A stretch of 55,469 bases of DNA, taken from the IMG/VR virus record IMGVR_UViG_3300050121_000180, positions 1-55,469 of that record; one strand, given 5' to 3'. Positions 6,022 to 32,955 of this stretch are shown here, one piece after another. Positions within the stretch are counted from its first letter, which is position 1, and each line of letters begins with the position of its first letter. Below the pieces are notes generated by a model. The model worked only from the letters and a program-made list of their open reading frames with translations, was not told the DNA's origin and did no database searches. The translations under genes and the position numbers were made by a program. This DNA comes from a virus.

Positions 6022-8283
6022 TCACTTAAAACTTCCAATTGCATAAGCAATTCCTGTAAAATTGAAAGTATTCTTCAAAGTTATTTTATCAATTTCCACT
6101 AACATTCCACTTTCTACCATTACTTTCAAAGTACGGTCTAAAATTGCTACAGCCCCGCCCCCTGATTTATCATTCTTAAAAGCTGCTCTATTATTAACCC
6201 TTCTTGTGTAATATAATTTTGGAATAATTTTAGCTTCAAATAGATTTTCTTTCACGTTATACGTTTCCAATTGTTTTGCAGTTGAATTTAAATATTCTTT
6301 CGTTATTTTTTCTAAATCAAACAAATGTTTGGAAGCGCCTTCGCCAATATCCCCTGTCTTAAATTTTTGCGTAACAATAGCAACGTCATTCTCCGCAAAG
6401 CGTATGCCCCAAGCAGCTTCTTCCGCGTTAATTACAGGCGCATAAGGGTTTATGCCTATTGCAATAAGTGAAGCTGTTTTTTTAGCTTTAATATGCGAAC
6501 GATTCCATAACTCCGCAACATAACCTTCCGGGTTTTCGTTAACAATTTTATCAATTTTAGAACTAAACTCCCTAAACAGTTTTTCAGCTGCTTCACTAAT
6601 AGTTACATTATTAACCGTTTTGTTAACTGAATTAGTAAGCGCAATTGAAAGCAGACTTCCAATCTTAGCTAATAATTCTTTAGGCGGGGGTTGGCCTGCG
6701 TTTGGGTTATCGGGAACCCGAATCCCTTCATATTGAATAATTGAAAAACGAGGGATAAGCCCGTCAGCGATTTGCTGTTCGTCTAAGTTGTTATAAAATA
6801 TTTCGGGCGTACTTTCGCCTAATATTGTTAAAGCTGGAGATTGTACTTCAGCAGTATTTTTTTCGGAATCGCTATACGCGGAAGTTCCTAGCCAATCATT
6901 AGCGCCAGACTTACCGTATAAATCTAATAAGGAACGTTTAAGCGACTTGCTTGCAGAATTTGCACGTGCGTCATTCATTTCCTGCAATGTATAACCAATT
7001 TCCCCCATGATTGAGAATACGCAGGGTTTTGTGGACAAAGAACGAATTAATGCAGGACCTGAACTAAAAACTACAGGGCCGACAAATTGAGTTATTAATG
7101 GAATAGTTGGGCGTAACGCTGAAACTATACGGTTAATACCTGCGGTTGCCCCATCTTTGCCTCGACCTGTTCCAGCTAACAAAACAATATACAAATTTAA
7201 ACCTTGGCTGGATACATTAAAAGCGCGTCCTGCAATTCCAGCCATAAACGCCATTGCTCCAGCTAATGCAATTTCATGTACAGGTTTAAAAGATGTTTCA
7301 AATATATAATTTGTTAATTCACCTAATAACCCTTGGGGTGTTGTATAAGTGGAACTATGAGGGGTTAGTTTCGTTGGTTTTAAATTAGAAGTTGGAGCAG
7401 GCATTAAAGGCTCTGGCTTTTTCATAATAGCTTCAGCATTCCGCTTAACAGCGTCGAAGTCAATTGGGGCGGGCTCGTTAGCGCGAATTTTGTTTAACAT
7501 TCCGTACTTGCCTATAAAATAAGAATCGCGTTGCGCTTTATCTCTTTTGCCTAACTTACTCATACGGAATAGCCGTATAACTTGCTCGTTGTCTTTTGAA
7601 TAAAATGCGATTATTGAAAGTAATGCAAAGTCAGCTTCACTTTGGCTGGGATAAATGCCTTGCCATTCTCCGTTGCAAAGCGTGATATACTTTTCACCGT
7701 TAACTGCATTGGAAGCACGTTCACAAATTTCAATATCGGAATAGTCCCCGTCAATTTGTTCCAAGTCGACAATGTTAACAGGTTGCATTTCCACATACAT
7801 TACGTCTAATAACTCTTGGCGCTCTTCAATTGGAATATTCCGAATAGCATTGCCAGTGCAAATCATGTACCGGCCTTCGGAATAAATTTCCACATGCGAG
7901 CGGTGAACGCCGCGGGGAATTTTGCCTTTTACAATAATGTGAACACCACGACCAGAAGTGGATAATTCTGTATAGCTATTGAAAGCATTTATGATTTGCC
8001 CAAAGCGTACTTTATCTTCATCGCTTGCTGGATTAGATAGTTTGTCATCCAAGTCGATGAATGTATAAGGGTCGTCTTTAGTAATTACGAAGCCGATTGC
8101 AGGGCTACCTGTTTTTACTGCTTCTTCAAAGCTACCCCATGTTGCTGGATTAGTTACATCGGCAAATTGCCCGGTGCGGGGATTTAATGGAAACTTCTTT
8201 GGCTCGCCTGCTTCGTTCAATGTCATGTCTGCGACAATCCATTGGTTAAGCTGCCTAAGCTCTATTGGAAAATTATTAAGCAT
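6022..8283 (-). CDS. Primase-helicase: prim-pol domain plus DUF3987 ATPase (753 aa)
   Basis: Residues 1-150 carry an archaeo-eukaryotic-type primase/polymerase domain: FIDLDD (D77, D79, D80) as metal ligands, STSGRGVHIIVKG (H115) and EIYSEGRYMICTG. Residues about 310-650 match DUF3987, a RecA-like helicase domain, with the P-loop GTGRGKDGAT (371-380) and a second conserved strand FSIMGEIGYTL. It should prime and unwind DNA at the fork, serving the phage's own family B polymerase and clamp. The C-terminal 70 residues look like a DNA-binding winged-helix tail. It follows the 73-aa putative regulator in one minus-strand transcription unit. Confidence 0.88.
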   Translation of the reverse strand: MLNNFPIELRQLNQWIVADMTLNEAGEPKKFPLNPRTGQFADVTNPATWGSFEEAVKTGSPAIGFVITKDDPYTFIDLDDKLSNPASDEDKVRFGQIINAFNSYTELSTSGRGVHIIVKGKIPRGVHRSHVEIYSEGRYMICTGNAIRNIPIEERQELLDVMYVEMQPVNIVDLEQIDGDYSDIEICERASNAVNGEKYITLCNGEWQGIYPSQSEADFALLSIIAFYSKDNEQVIRLFRMSKLGKRDKAQRDSYFIGKYGMLNKIRANEPAPIDFDAVKRNAEAIMKKPEPLMPAPTSNLKPTKLTPHSSTYTTPQGLLGELTNYIFETSFKPVHEIALAGAMAFMAGIAGRAFNVSSQGLNLYIVLLAGTGRGKDGATAGINRIVSALRPTIPLITQFVGPVVFSSGPALIRSLSTKPCVFSIMGEIGYTLQEMNDARANSASKSLKRSLLDLYGKSGANDWLGTSAYSDSEKNTAEVQSPALTILGESTPEIFYNNLDEQQIADGLIPRFSIIQYEGIRVPDNPNAGQPPPKELLAKIGSLLSIALTNSVNKTVNNVTISEAAEKLFREFSSKIDKIVNENPEGYVAELWNRSHIKAKKTASLIAIGINPYAPVINAEEAAWGIRFAENDVAIVTQKFKTGDIGEGASKHLFDLEKITKEYLNSTAKQLETYNVKENLFEAKIIPKLYYTRRVNNRAAFKNDKSGGGAVAILDRTLKVMVESGMLVEIDKITLKNTFNFTGIAYAIGSFK

Positions 8284-18296: not shown

Positions 18297-19016
18297 ATGA
18301 AACCCTTGAAAAACAACCAACCCGCCGAGAAGCCTTCGCTTCTTCATTCCGGCGAACTCGAAATTAACTCTATCTTTTATACAATTCAAGGCGAAGGACC
18401 TTTTGCAGGTCGACGAGCTTTGTTTATTAGACTCGCTGGCTGCAACCTTCAATGTTCAGGTTGTGACACTGAATACTCTAATCGAACCTTTATGAATCTT
18501 GGTGTAATCCATCGTAAGTTTACGCAAGCATATAAAAACCAAAAAATAGTTCAGAACCCTTACACAGATTCAAAAATGTTAGTGGTCATCACTGGGGGCG
18601 AGCCGTTCCGCCAAAATATTGCGCCGCTTATTGAAATGTTATTGGACGAGGATTGCGATGTTCAAATTGAAACAAACGGAACATTGTACCAAGAACTCCC
18701 GTTTCATAATATTACAATTGTTTGCAGCCCAAAAACGGGCCGTATTAATGAAAAACTTTATCCGCACATTGACGCGTTCAAATACGTAATTACAGCGGGG
18801 CAAGTTGATAAGGATGGTTTACCTCTAAGCGTTCTAGGGCATCCTGTTAAAAATGCGGTTGCAAAACCACGTCCAGGTTCTAAGATTTATGTTCAAGCTG
18901 CTGACGAACAGGACATCAAGTTAAACAAAGCGAACTTGATGCAAACGATTGAAAGTGTAAAGACTTTTGAATATACTTTGTGTGTACAACTTCATAAAAT
19001 TGCGGGTTTAGATTAA
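18297..19016 (+). CDS. queE: QueE, 7-carboxy-7-deazaguanine synthase (radical SAM, 239 aa)
   Basis: The radical-SAM cluster is CNLQCSGC (C49, C53, C56) after IQGEGPFAGRRALFIRLAG, the hallmark substrate-binding start of QueE; the SAM-binding GGEP is at 100-103. QueE converts carboxytetrahydropterin to CDG, the third step of preQ0 synthesis. The ATG at 18297 lies within the AAAAGGATGA ribosome site itself, so the true start may be TTG at 18306, nine bases on and correctly spaced from AGGA. It is followed by queC after 11 bases. Confidence 0.92.
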   Translation: MKPLKNNQPAEKPSLLHSGELEINSIFYTIQGEGPFAGRRALFIRLAGCNLQCSGCDTEYSNRTFMNLGVIHRKFTQAYKNQKIVQNPYTDSKMLVVITGGEPFRQNIAPLIEMLLDEDCDVQIETNGTLYQELPFHNITIVCSPKTGRINEKLYPHIDAFKYVITAGQVDKDGLPLSVLGHPVKNAVAKPRPGSKIYVQAADEQDIKLNKANLMQTIESVKTFEYTLCVQLHKIAGLD

Positions 19017-19027
19017 GGGGATTTAAA

Positions 19028-19810
19028 ATGGAAGAAAGAAATAAAACTAAGGTTCTAGTTGTGGCTTCAGGCGGCCAAGACTCAACCACTTGTCTTTTTT
19101 GGGCAAAACAACGTTTCGACGAAGTCTTTGCTGTAACTTATAATTATGGTCAACGTCATGTAATTGAGATAGAAGCTGCAAAAGAAGTTGCTATTCTTGC
19201 AGGCGTTAGAAAACATTTTATCGTAAATGTTGGCCCTATTCTTGTGGGTAGCTCGCCTTTAGTAAGTTCAAACAATTTGGAGCAGTACAAAGACATGCAC
19301 TCACTGCCGGGCGGGCTAGAGAAAACGTTTGTTCCAGGCCGTAATTTGCTGTTCCTAACGTTAGCTGCAAACTTAGCTTACACGCTAGGAATAACGGATG
19401 TTGTAACGGGCGTATGTGAAGAAGATTCTGGCGGGTATCCTGATTGCCGTCAAGCATTTATTGATTCAGCACAAAAAGCAATTATTGAAGGTTTTTCGTA
19501 TAACAGCGAAGATGATTTTACAAAGTTTAAAATTCATACACCTTTGATGTATCTAACAAAAGCTCAAACTGTTGAACTCGCTGTTGAACTAGGTCAAGAC
19601 TGCTGGGACGCATTAGCCCACACTCACACCTCATATGACGGTAAATATCCGCCTACTGGAAACGACCATGCAACTTTGCTTCGCGCCAAAGGGTTCTTTG
19701 AAGCAGGTCGTCCAGACCCGTTAGTCCTTCGCGCTGTAATGGAAGGATTGATGGAATTGCCTGAAACAGATAATTATAAACCTGCTCCAGCACCTTTTCA
19801 GCTGTATTAA
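19028..19810 (+). CDS. queC: QueC-like ATP-dependent synthetase lacking the zinc cysteines (260 aa)
   Basis: The PP-loop SGGQDS (14-19), VTYNYGQRH, VPGRNLLFL (102-110) and EEDSGGYPDCR identify QueC, which normally turns CDG into ADG and then preQ0 using ATP and ammonia. The C-terminal zinc site of the family (C-x7/8-C-x2-C-x2-C before RxxGF) aligns without gaps here, but the four cysteines are S202, T210, D213 and T216. Fold and active loop are otherwise intact. The enzyme could be active without zinc, or could act differently, for example stopping at the amide ADG. Confidence 0.88.
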   Translation: MEERNKTKVLVVASGGQDSTTCLFWAKQRFDEVFAVTYNYGQRHVIEIEAAKEVAILAGVRKHFIVNVGPILVGSSPLVSSNNLEQYKDMHSLPGGLEKTFVPGRNLLFLTLAANLAYTLGITDVVTGVCEEDSGGYPDCRQAFIDSAQKAIIEGFSYNSEDDFTKFKIHTPLMYLTKAQTVELAVELGQDCWDALAHTHTSYDGKYPPTGNDHATLLRAKGFFEAGRPDPLVLRAVMEGLMELPETDNYKPAPAPFQLY

Positions 19811-19844: not shown

Positions 19845-19879
19845 TACACGGTACAACGTGAAAAGGTAAACATATAAAT
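19828..19879 (+). promoter_or_regulatory. Hairpin that can sequester the HNH gene start
   Basis: ATTTATATGTTTA (19828-19840) is perfectly complementary to TAAACATATAAAT (19867-19879), whose last two bases are the AT of the HNH start codon. An inner CACG/CGTG pair extends the structure, and the AAAAGG ribosome site lies next to the right arm. Read-through RNA from queC would fold the start away. Confidence 0.75.
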
Positions 19880-20405
19880 GGCAACTTTATTATTTCGGGA
19901 TTTAATTGATGTAGCTCCTGCTCCTATTCGTGATTATGAATTTAAAGATATACGAATTAAAAATAATTTATTTCGTATATATACGGATGGGGCAGTTTGG
20001 GATATTTCGTATTCGAGATGGCGTGAACCTGACATTGATAAGGACGGGTATAGAATCCACCATCTTGGAAGTAAAACTGTTAAATTACATAGACTAATAT
20101 TAATGGTTTATAGTCGACCACCTAGGCAAAGTGAACAAGGTAGACATCTAGATGGGGACCCTTCTAACAATGATAAGTCAAATTTAGAATGGGGAACAGG
20201 AAAACAAAATTGGATAGACAGACGTTTGCACGGCAGGGAAAGTGCTGAATGGCGAAGGCTCCTTACTAACGAGCAAGCTTTAGCAATCTATAACGATCCT
20301 CGACCTGAAAACGATATTGCAAAAGCATATGATATTTCACGAAATAGTATTATGGCAATTAAAGAAAAATTAACATATAAGGATATTCATAATGAAACCC
20401 TCTAA
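19878..20405 (+). CDS. HNH homing-type endonuclease 1 (175 aa)
   Basis: The central part has the HNH_3-type pattern: KTVKLHRLILMVYSRPP, then GRHLDGDPSNNDKSNLEWGT, where H-x-D-G-D and N-x-x-x-N-L-x-W-G-T are the metal-binding and core residues. The C-terminal part has a helix-turn-helix for site recognition (NDIAKAYDISRNSIMAIKEK). It is inserted between queC and queD, has its own promoter and hairpin, and overlaps queD by 14 bases. It is a selfish mobile gene, probably not part of the modification chemistry. Confidence 0.85.
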   Translation: MATLLFRDLIDVAPAPIRDYEFKDIRIKNNLFRIYTDGAVWDISYSRWREPDIDKDGYRIHHLGSKTVKLHRLILMVYSRPPRQSEQGRHLDGDPSNNDKSNLEWGTGKQNWIDRRLHGRESAEWRRLLTNEQALAIYNDPRPENDIAKAYDISRNSIMAIKEKLTYKDIHNETL

Positions 20406-20832
20406 TAAAATAACAGCGGACAGGTATCATGACTTTTCATACGGGCATCGTGTATATCAACATGAGTCATCTTGTTCACATTTGCACGGTCACAACGGGA
20501 GAGTTCACTTTACAATTACAGCCCCAGCATTGGACACAATTGGGCGAGTTTTGGACTTTTCCGTTATCAAAAGTTTATTATGCTCGTTCTTAGAAGATGA
20601 ATGGGACCACAAATTTTTGGTTTGGGAAAAAGACCCTTGGGCTCCAATTTTAAAAGAGCTTGACCCTGAAGGAACAGTAATTGTTACTTTCAATCCAACC
20701 GCTGAACAACTCGCGCAATACCTTGTTGAAGTTGTTGGCCCGAAAAGATTAGTTGGAACCGGAGCTGTTTTAATAAGTGCAAGATTTGAAGAAACTCGCA
20801 AATGTGCCGCATCATTCATTAAAGGGGAATAA
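20392..20832 (+). CDS. queD: QueD, 6-carboxytetrahydropterin synthase (146 aa)
   Basis: Zinc ligands H19, H32 and H34 lie in FSYGHRVYQHESSC and HLHGHNGRVH, with the catalytic cysteine at C28. WDHKFL carries the second catalytic His/Asp pair, and a glutamate in RFEETRKCAASF is the substrate anchor. It converts 7,8-dihydroneopterin triphosphate into CPH4, the second step of preQ0 synthesis. AAGGATATTCATA-ATG gives a fair ribosome site inside the HNH gene. It is followed immediately by the GTP cyclohydrolase fusion. Confidence 0.92.
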   Translation: MKPSNKITADRYHDFSYGHRVYQHESSCSHLHGHNGRVHFTITAPALDTIGRVLDFSVIKSLLCSFLEDEWDHKFLVWEKDPWAPILKELDPEGTVIVTFNPTAEQLAQYLVEVVGPKRLVGTGAVLISARFEETRKCAASFIKGE

Positions 20833-20833
20833 A

Positions 20834-21766
20834 GTGAGCAATAAGTTACATCTAACAAATTTCAATATTAATCAATTGGCAGTATTGCTCAACGAACATA
20901 TTTTATCTTTACACTTGAGCCAGCCTGGTAAATTTGGGCTTAACATTTATGCAGTTCCACGCGGGGGAATTCCGGCAGCCTACGCGCTAAAAGCAGTTAA
21001 CCAAGATTATTATCATATTGTGGACGACCCTAAACAAGCGGATATTGCAGTTGACGATATTATTGATAGTGGTGAAACTGCGAAACGCATGATGTCCGAG
21101 CACTTACTTCCAACTTATGCACTGATTGATAAGGCTGGGGTTAGCGGAGCTGTATTTACATTGGGCGATATTACAAAATGGATTGTTTGGCCATGGGAAA
21201 CGTCTAACGAACAAACAGAAGGCGTTGAAGCAAACGTTACTCGCATCCTTCAGTATATTGGGGAAGATGCTGGGCGCGAAGGTTTGTTGGAAACGCCAAG
21301 ACGTTTTAACAAAGCTCTAGGGCAATGGTTTAGCGGTTATGGTAAAGACCCAAAAGACATTTTAAAAGTGTTTGAGGATGGGGCTGAAAGCTATGACCAA
21401 ATGGTTATTGTTAAAGATATCCCAATTTACTCAAAATGCGAACATCATATTGCTGATATCTTCGGTACTGCTACAATCGCCTACATTCCGAACGGTAAAA
21501 TAGTTGGCCTTAGTAAGTTGTCACGTCTTGCGGATATTTTTGCTAGACGTTTACAAGTGCAAGAGCGTTTAACCCAGCAAATCGCGGATGCCCTTGAAGA
21601 ACATTTAGCGCCTAAAGGCGTAGGTGTTTTGATTAAAGCTAGGCACATGTGCATGGAATCACGTGGTCTATGCCAACAAGGACATTATACTATTACATGC
21701 GCTTTGCACGGAGTTTTGAAAAATGATGTTGCAGCTCGTGCTGAGTTTATGGCTTTGGCAAAATAA
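20834..21766 (+). CDS. Fusion: Gpt-like purine phosphoribosyltransferase + GTP cyclohydrolase I (310 aa)
   Basis: Domain 1 (residues 1-125) has YAVPRGGIPAA (RGG 43-45), the PRPP loop VDDIIDSGET (73-82) and KWIVWPWET (115-123), which matches the base-binding tail of xanthine-guanine phosphoribosyltransferase (Gpt, 'WIEQPWD'). Domain 2 (130-310) is a complete FolE: GREGLLETPRRF, SKCEHHIADIFG (C202, H205), VGLSKLSRL, QVQERLTQQI, HMCMESRG (C273). GTG at 20834 with AAAGGGG upstream is the chosen start; an ATG at 20777 would overlap queD by 56 bases. FolE supplies dihydroneopterin triphosphate, the first step; the fused salvage domain is unusual. Confidence 0.88.
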   Translation: MSNKLHLTNFNINQLAVLLNEHILSLHLSQPGKFGLNIYAVPRGGIPAAYALKAVNQDYYHIVDDPKQADIAVDDIIDSGETAKRMMSEHLLPTYALIDKAGVSGAVFTLGDITKWIVWPWETSNEQTEGVEANVTRILQYIGEDAGREGLLETPRRFNKALGQWFSGYGKDPKDILKVFEDGAESYDQMVIVKDIPIYSKCEHHIADIFGTATIAYIPNGKIVGLSKLSRLADIFARRLQVQERLTQQIADALEEHLAPKGVGVLIKARHMCMESRGLCQQGHYTITCALHGVLKNDVAARAEFMALAK

Positions 21767-21767
21767 G

Positions 21768-22325
21768 ATGAAATTTTGCAAGGTTTGTAATAAAGACTTA
21801 CCTTCAAGTTTATTCAAAATTAAAGGTAAGGTTGGAACTTGCATTCCTTGCATGAAACTTCGAAAATCGAATTATTACTTTGATAATAAAGAAGAGATTT
21901 CAAAGAAGCAATCTGAATACCAAAAGAACAGTTTGAAAGTGAAAGCATATCAGGCTGCTTATTTTCAGAAAAATAAAGAGGTAAATGCTAGGGCAACTAA
22001 GAAATGGAGAGATAATCATCCTTTACAGCATCAACAAATTACAAAACAAGATTATTTAAAAAGAAAGAATTCTTGGCCGGATTATGTTGCAACAAGACGA
22101 GCGAAATTACTTCAAGCAATTCCAAAATGGGCGAACAAAGAGAAAGTAAAATCCATATACTTAAAAGCGGCACAATTAACGCTTGAAACCGGAATCCAAC
22201 ATCATGTTGACCACATAGTACCTCTAAATTCAAAGTTAGTTTGTGGGCTACATTGGGAAGGTAACTTAGAACCTTTGCCCGCTTTAGAGAATATGTTAAA
22301 GGGTAATAGATATGAAACTGAGTAA
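21768..22325 (+). CDS. HNH endonuclease 2 with N-terminal zinc ribbon (185 aa)
   Basis: An N-terminal zinc module (KFCKVCNKDL ... GTCIPCMK) and Lys-rich helices lead to the HNH core QHHVDHIVPLNSKLVCGLHW, then GNLEPLPALENMLKGNRY (H..D H ... N...P....N...K). It starts one base after the FolE stop. It is a second mobile endonuclease within the same modification cluster, between folE and dpdA. Confidence 0.85.
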   Translation: MKFCKVCNKDLPSSLFKIKGKVGTCIPCMKLRKSNYYFDNKEEISKKQSEYQKNSLKVKAYQAAYFQKNKEVNARATKKWRDNHPLQHQQITKQDYLKRKNSWPDYVATRRAKLLQAIPKWANKEKVKSIYLKAAQLTLETGIQHHVDHIVPLNSKLVCGLHWEGNLEPLPALENMLKGNRYETE

Positions 22326-22340
22326 CAAGAGAGCGCAACG

Positions 22341-23273
22341 ATGAATCTTTTTGTCGCTGCTGTTTACAGAAACGGATACCGAGCGGGGGGCGAAGAAAAA
22401 GGCCGCTATGCAAAGTTAACTGACCACGAAAAAGAATGTGTTAATGCAAGTAAGAATCTGCTGGAGTCGTTTCACTATGTTGAAGGGCAAATGTATGTTG
22501 ACGCAATGCGTTTGGATGGGGCGAAGGTCTTTCTTGACTCGGGGGCTTTCTCCGCATTCACATTAGGCGCAACAATCGACCTTCCCCATTATTGTGACTA
22601 CATTAAAAAGAACGAGGATATCATTCGGAAAGAAGATGGAGTTGTCATGGCATCTGTTTTGGATGGTATTGGCGACCCGTTAAAGACTTATCAAAATCAG
22701 CTTGCAATGGAAGAACTAGGTGCGAAACCTTTGCCCTGCTTTCACTATGGTGAAGACGAGCGTTATTTGGAATGGTATGTTAAGAATTATGACTATATTA
22801 CATTAGGCGGGATGGTTGGACGAAGTGCTGTAGTTTTGATGCAGTGGCTTGACCGTATTTGGGAAAAGTATCTAACAGACGGAACTGGCAAACCCCGTTT
22901 AAAAGTTCACGCTTTTGGTATTACTGCAATAAGAATTATGGAGCGATATCCATGGTTTTCGGTTGACTCTAGCTCGTGGATTCAGACCGCAGCGTTTGGT
23001 TCAATTGTAACTCCAAAACACGGAACAATTAGTGTATCATCCCAATCACCTGCTCGCCATGTAGCTGGTCAACATGCTACAACATTGAGCCCTATTGAAC
23101 AAGATTGTGTTTTCAAAATGTTGGAGGATGCAGGCTTTACATATGAGCGTTTGTCCACAGTATATGAAAGTCGAGCAGCGTTTAATATTCACAGTTACGG
23201 GTTGATTGCTGCAATGATTAACGCAAATAAAAATCTAACTTTTAAAGCGCATGTGCAAGAATTATTTGATTAG
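22341..23273 (+). CDS. dpdA: DpdA, 7-deazaguanine DNA transglycosylase (310 aa)
   Basis: It shows the TGT-like fold signatures of phage DpdA: FLDSGAFSAF with D66 as general acid/base, GGMVGRS (substrate loop), VHAFGITA and FSVDSSSW with D209 as likely nucleophile. DpdA exchanges guanine in DNA for a 7-deazaguanine base such as preQ0, releasing free guanine. It lacks the tRNA-binding zinc domain of bacterial Tgt. It ends the que cluster, and its presence turns the pathway from tRNA queuosine toward DNA modification. Confidence 0.9.
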   Translation: MNLFVAAVYRNGYRAGGEEKGRYAKLTDHEKECVNASKNLLESFHYVEGQMYVDAMRLDGAKVFLDSGAFSAFTLGATIDLPHYCDYIKKNEDIIRKEDGVVMASVLDGIGDPLKTYQNQLAMEELGAKPLPCFHYGEDERYLEWYVKNYDYITLGGMVGRSAVVLMQWLDRIWEKYLTDGTGKPRLKVHAFGITAIRIMERYPWFSVDSSSWIQTAAFGSIVTPKHGTISVSSQSPARHVAGQHATTLSPIEQDCVFKMLEDAGFTYERLSTVYESRAAFNIHSYGLIAAMINANKNLTFKAHVQELFD

Positions 23274-31767: not shown

Positions 31768-32955
31768 TTAAGTCACTGTTAAAACAACATGGGTACTTAG
31801 TGTAGAAACCGCAGCTTGATTAAAAGCAATTGCGATTAATGTTGTACCTGTTGGAGCTGGGGCAGTTCCTAAAGTCAACGCTGTGATATAAAATGTACTT
31901 TCTAACCCTGAACCTGGAAGTGATGCAACGGCTTGAGCGTTTGCTGGGTATACGCTTTGCCCAATTGAAAGTGCATTTAAATAAGCTTGTATCGATGCAA
32001 TTATTAAAACGCCTGTTGTTGCAACATAACCGGGCAAAGCTTTAATGGTCAATGAAATATAAATTTCAATATTGCCAAGGATAAAATAATTTATTGTAAC
32101 AGGTAAGCCTGCTGAGTCGTAAACGATAACAGGTGTTGTACCATATGTTTGAATTCCAGGCGGTTTTTTTAAACGTATTGCGTTGCCTATATCCACAGAA
32201 GCGCCCCCGCTAACGACTGCGGATAGTGAGTGCGCCGGAATACCATTAACATCTGTTATACCCGTATCGTTTTCGTAAACATGGAACCGTTGAACGCCTG
32301 TTACGTTTCCAATTGAACCTGCAATCGATTTAACAATAGTTTGAGCAGGTAAAGCAGTTGAAACGCCTTGTCGTTGTCTTAGAGTTGCATCACTTTCAAT
32401 AGGTGCGCCTACAGTTGCATCTACAGTTGAAACAAATGTCTGCCAGCCTAATTGCGGATTAAAGATACTATTTATCGTTCCACTTGGCGCAAATATTGCA
32501 CCTTTATTTTGAGCGGTAACTGTTACAGATATTGAGCCTGAAATTGGGATGGTTACTGTAGCAGGTAGATTCCAAAGGTTGCCGTTTACGTCAGCAACTA
32601 CGCCGTTTGTAATTATACTGCCAACTTGTCCAACAACATTACCTTGGCTTTGTGAGTTTGTAGCGACTAATCTTGCAAGCCCGTTTAGCTTAACTTGAGA
32701 AGATAAACCCGCGCCTTGAGCATATAAAGGAGAGTAACTTTGAAATACTGCAATCGCAGCTTGGTTACTATCATTGATAGCTTTGGCAATAACTGCTAAC
32801 CATTGACCGTCTTGACTATCCGCTGAAATATAAATATCAGTTCCATAGATAGTTTGAAAACTTGCAATTAAAGATTGATAAATATCGCTATATTGCGGCG
32901 CAGATATACCTGTTGAATTAATTGTTGGGGCTAAAGTTGCAAGAGGGTATATCAT
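31768..32955 (-). CDS. Baseplate J-like wedge protein (395 aa)
   Basis: It has the baseplate J/gp47 order: LYAQGAGLSSQVKLNGLARL, then ITDVNGIPAHSLSAVVSGGA and CYVAxxx-like C-terminal beta domain, with WNLPATVTIP and ESDATLRQRQ (residues near 195), the highly conserved 'sD...R.R' motif. It forms the wedge ring in contractile tails together with the gp25-like protein, whose gene overlaps by four bases. Confidence 0.85.
   Translation of the reverse strand: MIYPLATLAPTINSTGISAPQYSDIYQSLIASFQTIYGTDIYISADSQDGQWLAVIAKAINDSNQAAIAVFQSYSPLYAQGAGLSSQVKLNGLARLVATNSQSQGNVVGQVGSIITNGVVADVNGNLWNLPATVTIPISGSISVTVTAQNKGAIFAPSGTINSIFNPQLGWQTFVSTVDATVGAPIESDATLRQRQGVSTALPAQTIVKSIAGSIGNVTGVQRFHVYENDTGITDVNGIPAHSLSAVVSGGASVDIGNAIRLKKPPGIQTYGTTPVIVYDSAGLPVTINYFILGNIEIYISLTIKALPGYVATTGVLIIASIQAYLNALSIGQSVYPANAQAVASLPGSGLESTFYITALTLGTAPAPTGTTLIAIAFNQAAVSTLSTHVVLTVT

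Follow-up and report, generated by a model that had tools for sequence, protein, structure and literature searches.

Accounts of the 7-deazaguanine pathway in phages, in which a protective analog takes the place of guanine in the DNA, follow the making of the new base and its insertion into DNA, and not the fate of the guanine that is expelled. That fate is brought into question by a gene of an uncultured virus. In an IMG/VR virus record of 55,469 bases, analyzed over its whole length and called the window below, a phosphoribosyltransferase (PRT) domain precedes FolE (GTP cyclohydrolase I) within a single reading frame. What is the role of a PRT attached to the enzyme with which synthesis of the new base begins?

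A fusion gene in a 7-deazaguanine cluster

The fusion gene lies in a run of genes that we list with their profile matches.

18297-19016, + strand: QueE (phrog_2076, 6.5e-50)
19028-19810, + strand: QueC (preQ0 synthase), without an amidotransferase domain (PF06508, 1e-55; TIGR00364, above cut-off)
19878-20405, + strand: HNH endonuclease, intruding between queC and queD and outside the pathway (phrog_59, 8.4e-26)
20392-20832, + strand: QueD (6-carboxytetrahydropterin synthase; PF01242, 2.5e-21; phrog_2389, 6.4e-42)
20834-21766, + strand: PRT-FolE fusion, 310 aa, GTG start (AlphaFold2 mean pLDDT 93.5, pTM 0.79)
21768-22325, + strand: endonuclease VII-like, intruding between PRT-folE and dpdA and outside the pathway (phrog_1035, 4e-15)
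22341-23273, + strand: DpdA-type DNA guanine transglycosylase, 310 aa (phrog_887, 1.7e-80)

The order on the + strand is queE-queC-queD-[PRT-folE]-dpdA, followed by genes for a DNA polymerase clamp and a DNA polymerase, so that the fusion does lie inside a 7-deazaguanine cluster, where the first-pass annotation of this DNA had placed it. The GTG at 20834 is one base past the stop codon of queD (TAA, 20830-20832) and is preceded by a ribosome-binding site rated good, AAGGGGAA at 20822-20829; the frame runs uninterrupted up to the TAA at 21764-21766. This is a real gene. We rejected an alternative upstream GTG at 20777 as the start, since it would overlap queD, and the alignment of homologues begins at 20834.

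The same set of FolE, QueD, QueE, QueC and DpdA underlies 7-deazaguanine DNA modification in the Queuovirinae, with dPreQ0 as the predicted product (Hutinet et al., 2019; PMC6884629). By the rule given there, a QueC that lacks the amidotransferase domain predicts preQ0 as the DNA base here too. The window DpdA has its conserved aspartates, D66 (in LDSGAFS) and D209 (in SVDSSSW), both invariant. The replication and que genes resemble those of the siphoviral Queuovirinae, and a baseplate-wedge homologue (phrog_6) is found at 31768-32955, a possible case of tail-module exchange.

The C-terminal half of the fusion is a complete GTP cyclohydrolase I domain. It matches PF01227 at 1.6e-67 and phrog_2197 at 4e-77. 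Across 62 homologues there is no variation in the zinc ligands (C202, H205, C273) or in the catalytic residues H204, Q243, H271 and R277. Foldseek matched the modeled domain to FolE structures at 1e-23, with 7ala and 7alb among the matches, and identity to the M. tuberculosis enzyme is ~45% across the structural match. An ordinary FolE, by contrast, has no N-terminal PRT. All AlphaFold2 models are of the monomer, with window and IMG/VR sequences as alignment input.

The PRT active site and its missing loop

As a single-sequence query, the N-terminal domain matches PRT families weakly (Pfam 0.035; phrog_8995 1e-3). A profile of 21 relatives, however, reached the Gpt structures of E. coli and Yersinia first among PDB entries, at 3e-10, so the PRT match is not due to chance. 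The domain modeled alone gave pLDDT 91.6 and pTM 0.86. Comparing this model with the PDB by Foldseek placed E. coli XGPRT first, the TM-scores of the top matches (by query) being 0.45-0.65; all 30 matches at E ≤ 1e-3 are purine PRTs of the Gpt, XGPRT or HGXPRT type, and the first orotate PRT appears at rank 43. Profile and fold ranking together rule out a pyrimidine or adenine PRT. By profile and modeled fold, then, the N-terminal domain is a Gpt-type (xanthine-guanine) PRT with a predicted activity to match, and the earlier reading of the gene as a Gpt-like PRT joined to a complete FolE is borne out. Conservation of the positions below was counted over 62 diverse PRT-FolE fusions.

20834-21211, + strand: loop-less Gpt-type PRT domain, residues 1-126 (profile, model, Foldseek)
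20957-20968, + strand: pyrophosphate-binding loop PRGG, residues 42-45, equivalent to Gpt S36-G39 (P42 and G45 62/62, R43 58/62, G44 61/62)
21008-21052, + strand: short β2-β3 link, residues 59-73, where Gpt has its flexible-loop hairpin (Gpt alignment)
21053-21079, + strand: PRPP-binding motif DDIIDSGET, residues 74-82, equivalent to Gpt D88-T96 (D74, D75 and G80 62/62; D78 and T82 61/62)
21131-21133, + strand: K100, equivalent to Gpt K115 (58/62)
21179-21199, + strand: hood WIVWPWE (W116 61/62; P120, W121 and E122 62/62)
21224-21763, + strand: FolE domain, residues 131-310

In the alignment with E. coli Gpt, R37 corresponds to R43, G38-G39 to G44-G45, D88/D89 to D74/D75, D92 to D78, T96 to T82, K115 to K100, W134 to W116 and P138-W139 to P120-W121. 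The motifs picked out in the first-pass annotation lie as follows: RGG within PRGG at residues 42-45, VDDIIDSGET at 73-82, with D78 at the place of the catalytic D92 of Gpt, and KWIVWPWET at 115-123, with W116 at the base-stacking position of W134. We take Gpt K115 to be the contact to O6 of guanine or xanthine. Positions that bind pyrophosphate, PRPP and the base, or stack upon it, are 94-100% conserved in the 62 fusions, while the other columns of the domain vary freely. The window domain thus has in common with E. coli Gpt (XGPRT; PDB 1a95/4jls; phrog_8995) the fold, the pyrophosphate loop, the PRPP motif, the base-contacting lysine, the stacking tryptophan and the PW(E/D) hood. Identity is ~18% across the structural match, and only the window domain is fused to FolE.

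The likeness to Gpt stops short at one element, which the first-pass annotation had overlooked. Aligned with E. coli Gpt and full-length phage Gpts, the window domain has no counterpart of Gpt residues ~57-79, the flexible catalytic loop; the middle of the E. coli domain is longer by the ~23 residues of this hairpin. The loop is deleted in every such mini-PRT inspected, fused or unfused, and the spacing from RGG to DD in the relatives is 22-34, with one of 41, once register artefacts are set aside. Fused PRTs that seemed to carry a longer, loop-bearing insert (gap 54-55) proved on inspection to be regular-expression artefacts. As to whether the loop was lost once or twice, the tree branch that joins all mini-PRTs has a support of 74. 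In type I PRTs the flexible loop shields the active site and aids catalysis, as shown for OPRT (PMC5430920).

The family-wide absence of this loop lends itself to the main rival explanation, one that we consider unlikely though worth serious attention: the PRT fold would bind PRPP, guanine or a guanine nucleotide without turnover, and gate FolE as a sensor, so that FolE would be active only when signaled to by guanine or PRPP. Animal GTP cyclohydrolase I is gated by the protein GFRP, and PurR senses PRPP with a PRT fold. That the animal enzyme is under protein-mediated control (7ala and 7alb) is in keeping with a sensor, as is the choice of FolE as specific fusion partner. The near invariance of the catalytic and base-contacting residues speaks against it; D78, for one, is not obviously needed for mere binding.

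Distribution with FolE and DpdA

Among named phages the PRT domain occurs in 37 records, in 33 of them fused to FolE and in four separate but adjacent. The fused records come from phages of Pseudomonas, Vibrio, Stenotrophomonas, Variovorax, Xanthomonas and Sphingomonas and represent at least six groups. The FolE genes of the Nipunavirus PaMx25, of VpKK5 and of the Stenotrophomonas, Variovorax, Xanthomonas and Sphingomonas phages are the same fusion, 53-63% identical overall; dpdA adjoins in the records inspected, and the database label is just GTP cyclohydrolase. The first-pass remark that its author knew of no described enzyme of this composition needs qualifying, as the fusion is not unique and stands in deposited phages, annotated merely as 'GTP cyclohydrolase'. 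The PRT domain goes unmentioned in PMC6884629 and in the paper on R7M, and likewise in that on MMDA13, a phage that does have the fusion. In the literature searched we found no paper that pairs a PRT with FolE or DpdA in phages; a mention in Cui et al. (2023, NAR) is possible. For PaMx25 (L062, 6899-7792), GenBank lists a short FolE (7217-7792) along with an ORF in a different frame labeled hypothetical. What is really encoded there is a PRT-FolE fusion, whose PRT half the gene call omits.

The four records with a separate gene are Flavobacterium immuto phages, in which the PRT gene adjoins folE. The product of immuto gp211 is a loop-less PRT, 30% identical to that of the window and encoded in a queD-queE-PRT-folE-dpdA cluster, but as a gene of its own. 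A dpdA gene or positional homologue lies near folE in 5/5 fused records inspected and in the immuto record. Genes for a PurN-like formyltransferase, a thymidylate kinase and QueF adjoin dpdA in immuto (L065, 13097-15073), which would fit the base being decorated further. Providencia phage PSTCR4 (L066, 6650-7666) has a FolE with a different N-terminal extension of ~130 residues, and a putative preQ0 transporter gene upstream of it.

Scans of IMG/VR with the PRT as the sole query returned at least 156 new viral loci, in ~95% of which FolE is fused or lies within 10 kb; the search profile was built mainly from fused members, the loci are related and hence not independent, and many contigs are fragments. 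DpdA is present in 19/19 fused loci reached through FolE (tblastn or profile) and in 72/74 reached through the PRT, the remaining two being on contigs of <16 kb. For stand-alone PRTs the count is at least 53 of 80 loci, many of them on short contigs. Over all the loci, DpdA is nearly always found where the contig reaches that far. The fusion is thus not common without dpdA, a co-occurrence that the first-pass annotation had singled out as a check of its proposal. Of the three outcomes that it had named as refuting, two, this one and a pyrimidine-type fold, were looked for and are contradicted. Conversely, 37 of 40 FolE loci that have no PRT keep DpdA, and the PRT, with any recycling that it performs, would therefore be an optional helper. 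In relatives of immuto the stand-alone mini-PRT gene sits next to folE, on either its 5′ or its 3′ side and in many cases 0-100 bp from it, so that the adjacency must have arisen or been rearranged more than once. A single profile scan of genome contigs turned up only two cellular records. One is a scaffold of Sinorhizobium psoraleae and the other a contig of a Saprospiraceae MAG; both contain the fusion and are probably of viral origin.

Such a distribution is not what would be predicted if the enzyme served general purine salvage, boosting GMP and GTP for DNA synthesis or for FolE out of whatever guanine, xanthine or hypoxanthine is at hand (breakdown of host RNA or DNA being one source), with no special tie to DpdA: the family would hardly be near-confined to deazaguanine clusters, on or beside folE. 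We consider general salvage improbable, even though Gpt-type residues accept both guanine and xanthine and one mini-PRT does stand apart from the pathway. The latter is an intact stand-alone copy between genes for a Cas4-exonuclease and a helicase (L070, 9998-10441), in a record of 57.5 kb, perhaps incomplete, in which no FolE, Que or DpdA was detected. Retention of the domain evidently does not require FolE, which also tells against a FolE sensor.

Two phages have a full-length enzyme instead. Brevundimonas phage MaInes has the gene order dNMP kinase-folE-gpt, in which the Gpt is complete with its flexible loop, together with queC, queD and queE; a ribonucleotide reductase is encoded in the same gene run. 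In Cellulophaga phage phiST a full-length PRT (CGPG_00045) lies away from folE, and the phage has folE, queD and queE. In each, an iterated profile revealed an immuto-type DpdA homologue behind the label hypothetical: MAINES_00850 (L228, 1664-2464; ~1e-40) and CGPG_00065 (L232, 5601-6380, minus strand; ~1e-63). Both are therefore phages with FolE, QueD, QueE and DpdA whose Gpt-type PRT is full-length, looped and unfused, unlike that of the window, and the mini-PRT can evidently be replaced by a catalytically complete enzyme. Full-length Gpts and stand-alone mini-PRTs thus occupy the same place in other clusters, as would not be anticipated for a sensor. Pseudomonas phage MIJ3 (PA5oct group; L229, 4986-5420) has a Gpt-like gene beside queE whose RGG-DD spacing is likewise short and which lacks the PWE hood; DpdA was not detected in MIJ3, and folE lies elsewhere in its genome.

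The MaInes gene run, with its ribonucleotide reductase and dNMP kinase, would also suit a different chemistry, in which the PRT converts a 7-deazaguanine base into its nucleotide (e.g., preQ0 into preQ0-MP) and kinase and reductase lead on to the dNTP. A PRT making such nucleotides in phages devoid of DpdA was an idea that we dropped for phiST and MaInes once their DpdAs had been found. With DpdA in nearly all PRT loci, as well as in these two phages, insertion of the free base suffices. Moreover, Gpt D92 contacts N7 of the purine, which 7-deazapurines do not possess, and the equivalent aspartate is kept in 61/62 fusions; its conservation argues for a true purine as substrate rather than a 7-deazapurine. 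We hold the nucleotide route to be very improbable.

In four loci (L093, L095, L122 and L139) the FolE to which the PRT is joined is divergent, with CSHHF in place of CEHH, and represents a second FolE subfamily; that of L122 matches PF01227 at 3.2e-51. In trees based on 119-181 columns, the PRTs of this group nest among the ordinary fused PRTs, which indicates that the FolE partner was swapped and the pairing retained; a sensor specific to FolE could likewise account for the domain on both subfamilies. In the FolE tree, a quick one with weak inner support, the unfused proteins arise from within a paraphyletic set of fused ones, so that several losses of the PRT are required. The fusion thus appears to be old, and the PRT to have been lost several times. 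FolE remained where the PRT was lost, which counts against the sensor, whereas repeated loss is to be expected of a metabolic step that is helpful but dispensable.

One fused protein (L018, 6913-7860) has a destroyed PRT active site, with RGG replaced by TKE and DD by DL, and an intact FolE; to judge from its sequence it is a natural PRT knock-out. It counts in favor of a sensor, and also of the view that the N-terminal domain is a relic, or simply an aid to folding or oligomerization of FolE, and the faster evolution of the domain could be read in the same way: between related, non-independent pairs dN/dS is ~0.1-0.5 for the PRT and ~0.1 or less for FolE, so that the PRT evolves about three times faster. 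A ratio well below 1 nevertheless indicates purifying selection on the PRT half, its ligand-binding residues are the best-conserved positions, and unfused copies exist. To the relic or folding aid we give the least credence of all.

Proposed reuse of expelled guanine

The reading that we favor, and consider moderately probable, is that guanine released by DpdA is converted to GMP and fed back into the pool of GTP on which FolE draws. It is the best-supported reading of the domain identities, the active-site conservation, the gene context and the co-occurrence taken together. The FolE-QueD-QueE-QueC route is established; phage DpdA places preQ0 in DNA, with base exchange 'most likely' (PMC6884629). 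In the proposed cycle, FolE would open GTP and start preQ0 synthesis through QueD, QueE and QueC, and DpdA would swap guanines of the phage DNA for preQ0, freeing one guanine per base inserted. The mini-Gpt domain would combine this guanine with PRPP to give GMP, which guanylate and nucleoside-diphosphate kinases (of the host, or a phage dNMP kinase in some relatives) could convert to GTP and so resupply the attached FolE with its substrate. A single GTP would be spent per preQ0 and one guanine freed per insertion, so the two halves balance; removal of guanine would additionally draw the base exchange forward. For the mini-PRT we infer activity without the flexible loop, guanine as the substrate and recycling as the benefit.

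Support for recycling comes from the full-length Gpts, the unfused PRTs adjacent to folE and the PRT on the second FolE type. On the other side stand the loss throughout the family of a loop that aids catalysis, and the fused L018 protein with its destroyed active site. FolE is two kinase steps away from GMP, which excludes direct channeling between the two halves, and no guanylate kinase was seen among the genes scanned in the window phage. Bacterial hosts usually possess guanine PRTs of their own. The L070 copy counts on either side, in favor as a domain kept independently of FolE, against as one kept without the pathway.

The scale of the release can be estimated. In phage CAjan dPreQ0 reaches ~32% of G (figures in PMC6884629). 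The window genome contains 22,037 guanines, and at the CAjan level ~7,000 of them would be set free for each copy of the genome. At 100 copies this would amount to several hundred thousand free guanines per infected cell, comparable with the GTP drain of FolE.

More broadly, we propose tentatively, as a view somewhat short of probable, that there is a family of loop-less PRTs specialized on the guanine that DNA transglycosylation sets free and linked to FolE through fusion or a shared operon, forming a closed cycle. We found no description of a closed guanine cycle for DNA base exchange in the literature searched. Should the family be active, it would provide enzymes with which to test the long-assumed need for a flexible PRT loop. 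PRT genes also serve as a genomic marker, having led to the unannotated DpdAs of MaInes and phiST. If the PRT closes the guanine loop, this would account for the conservation, in many phages, of a domain that has gone without annotation. That many guanine-replacing phages have a shrunken guanine-salvage enzyme on or beside FolE suggests that they reuse the guanine they discard.
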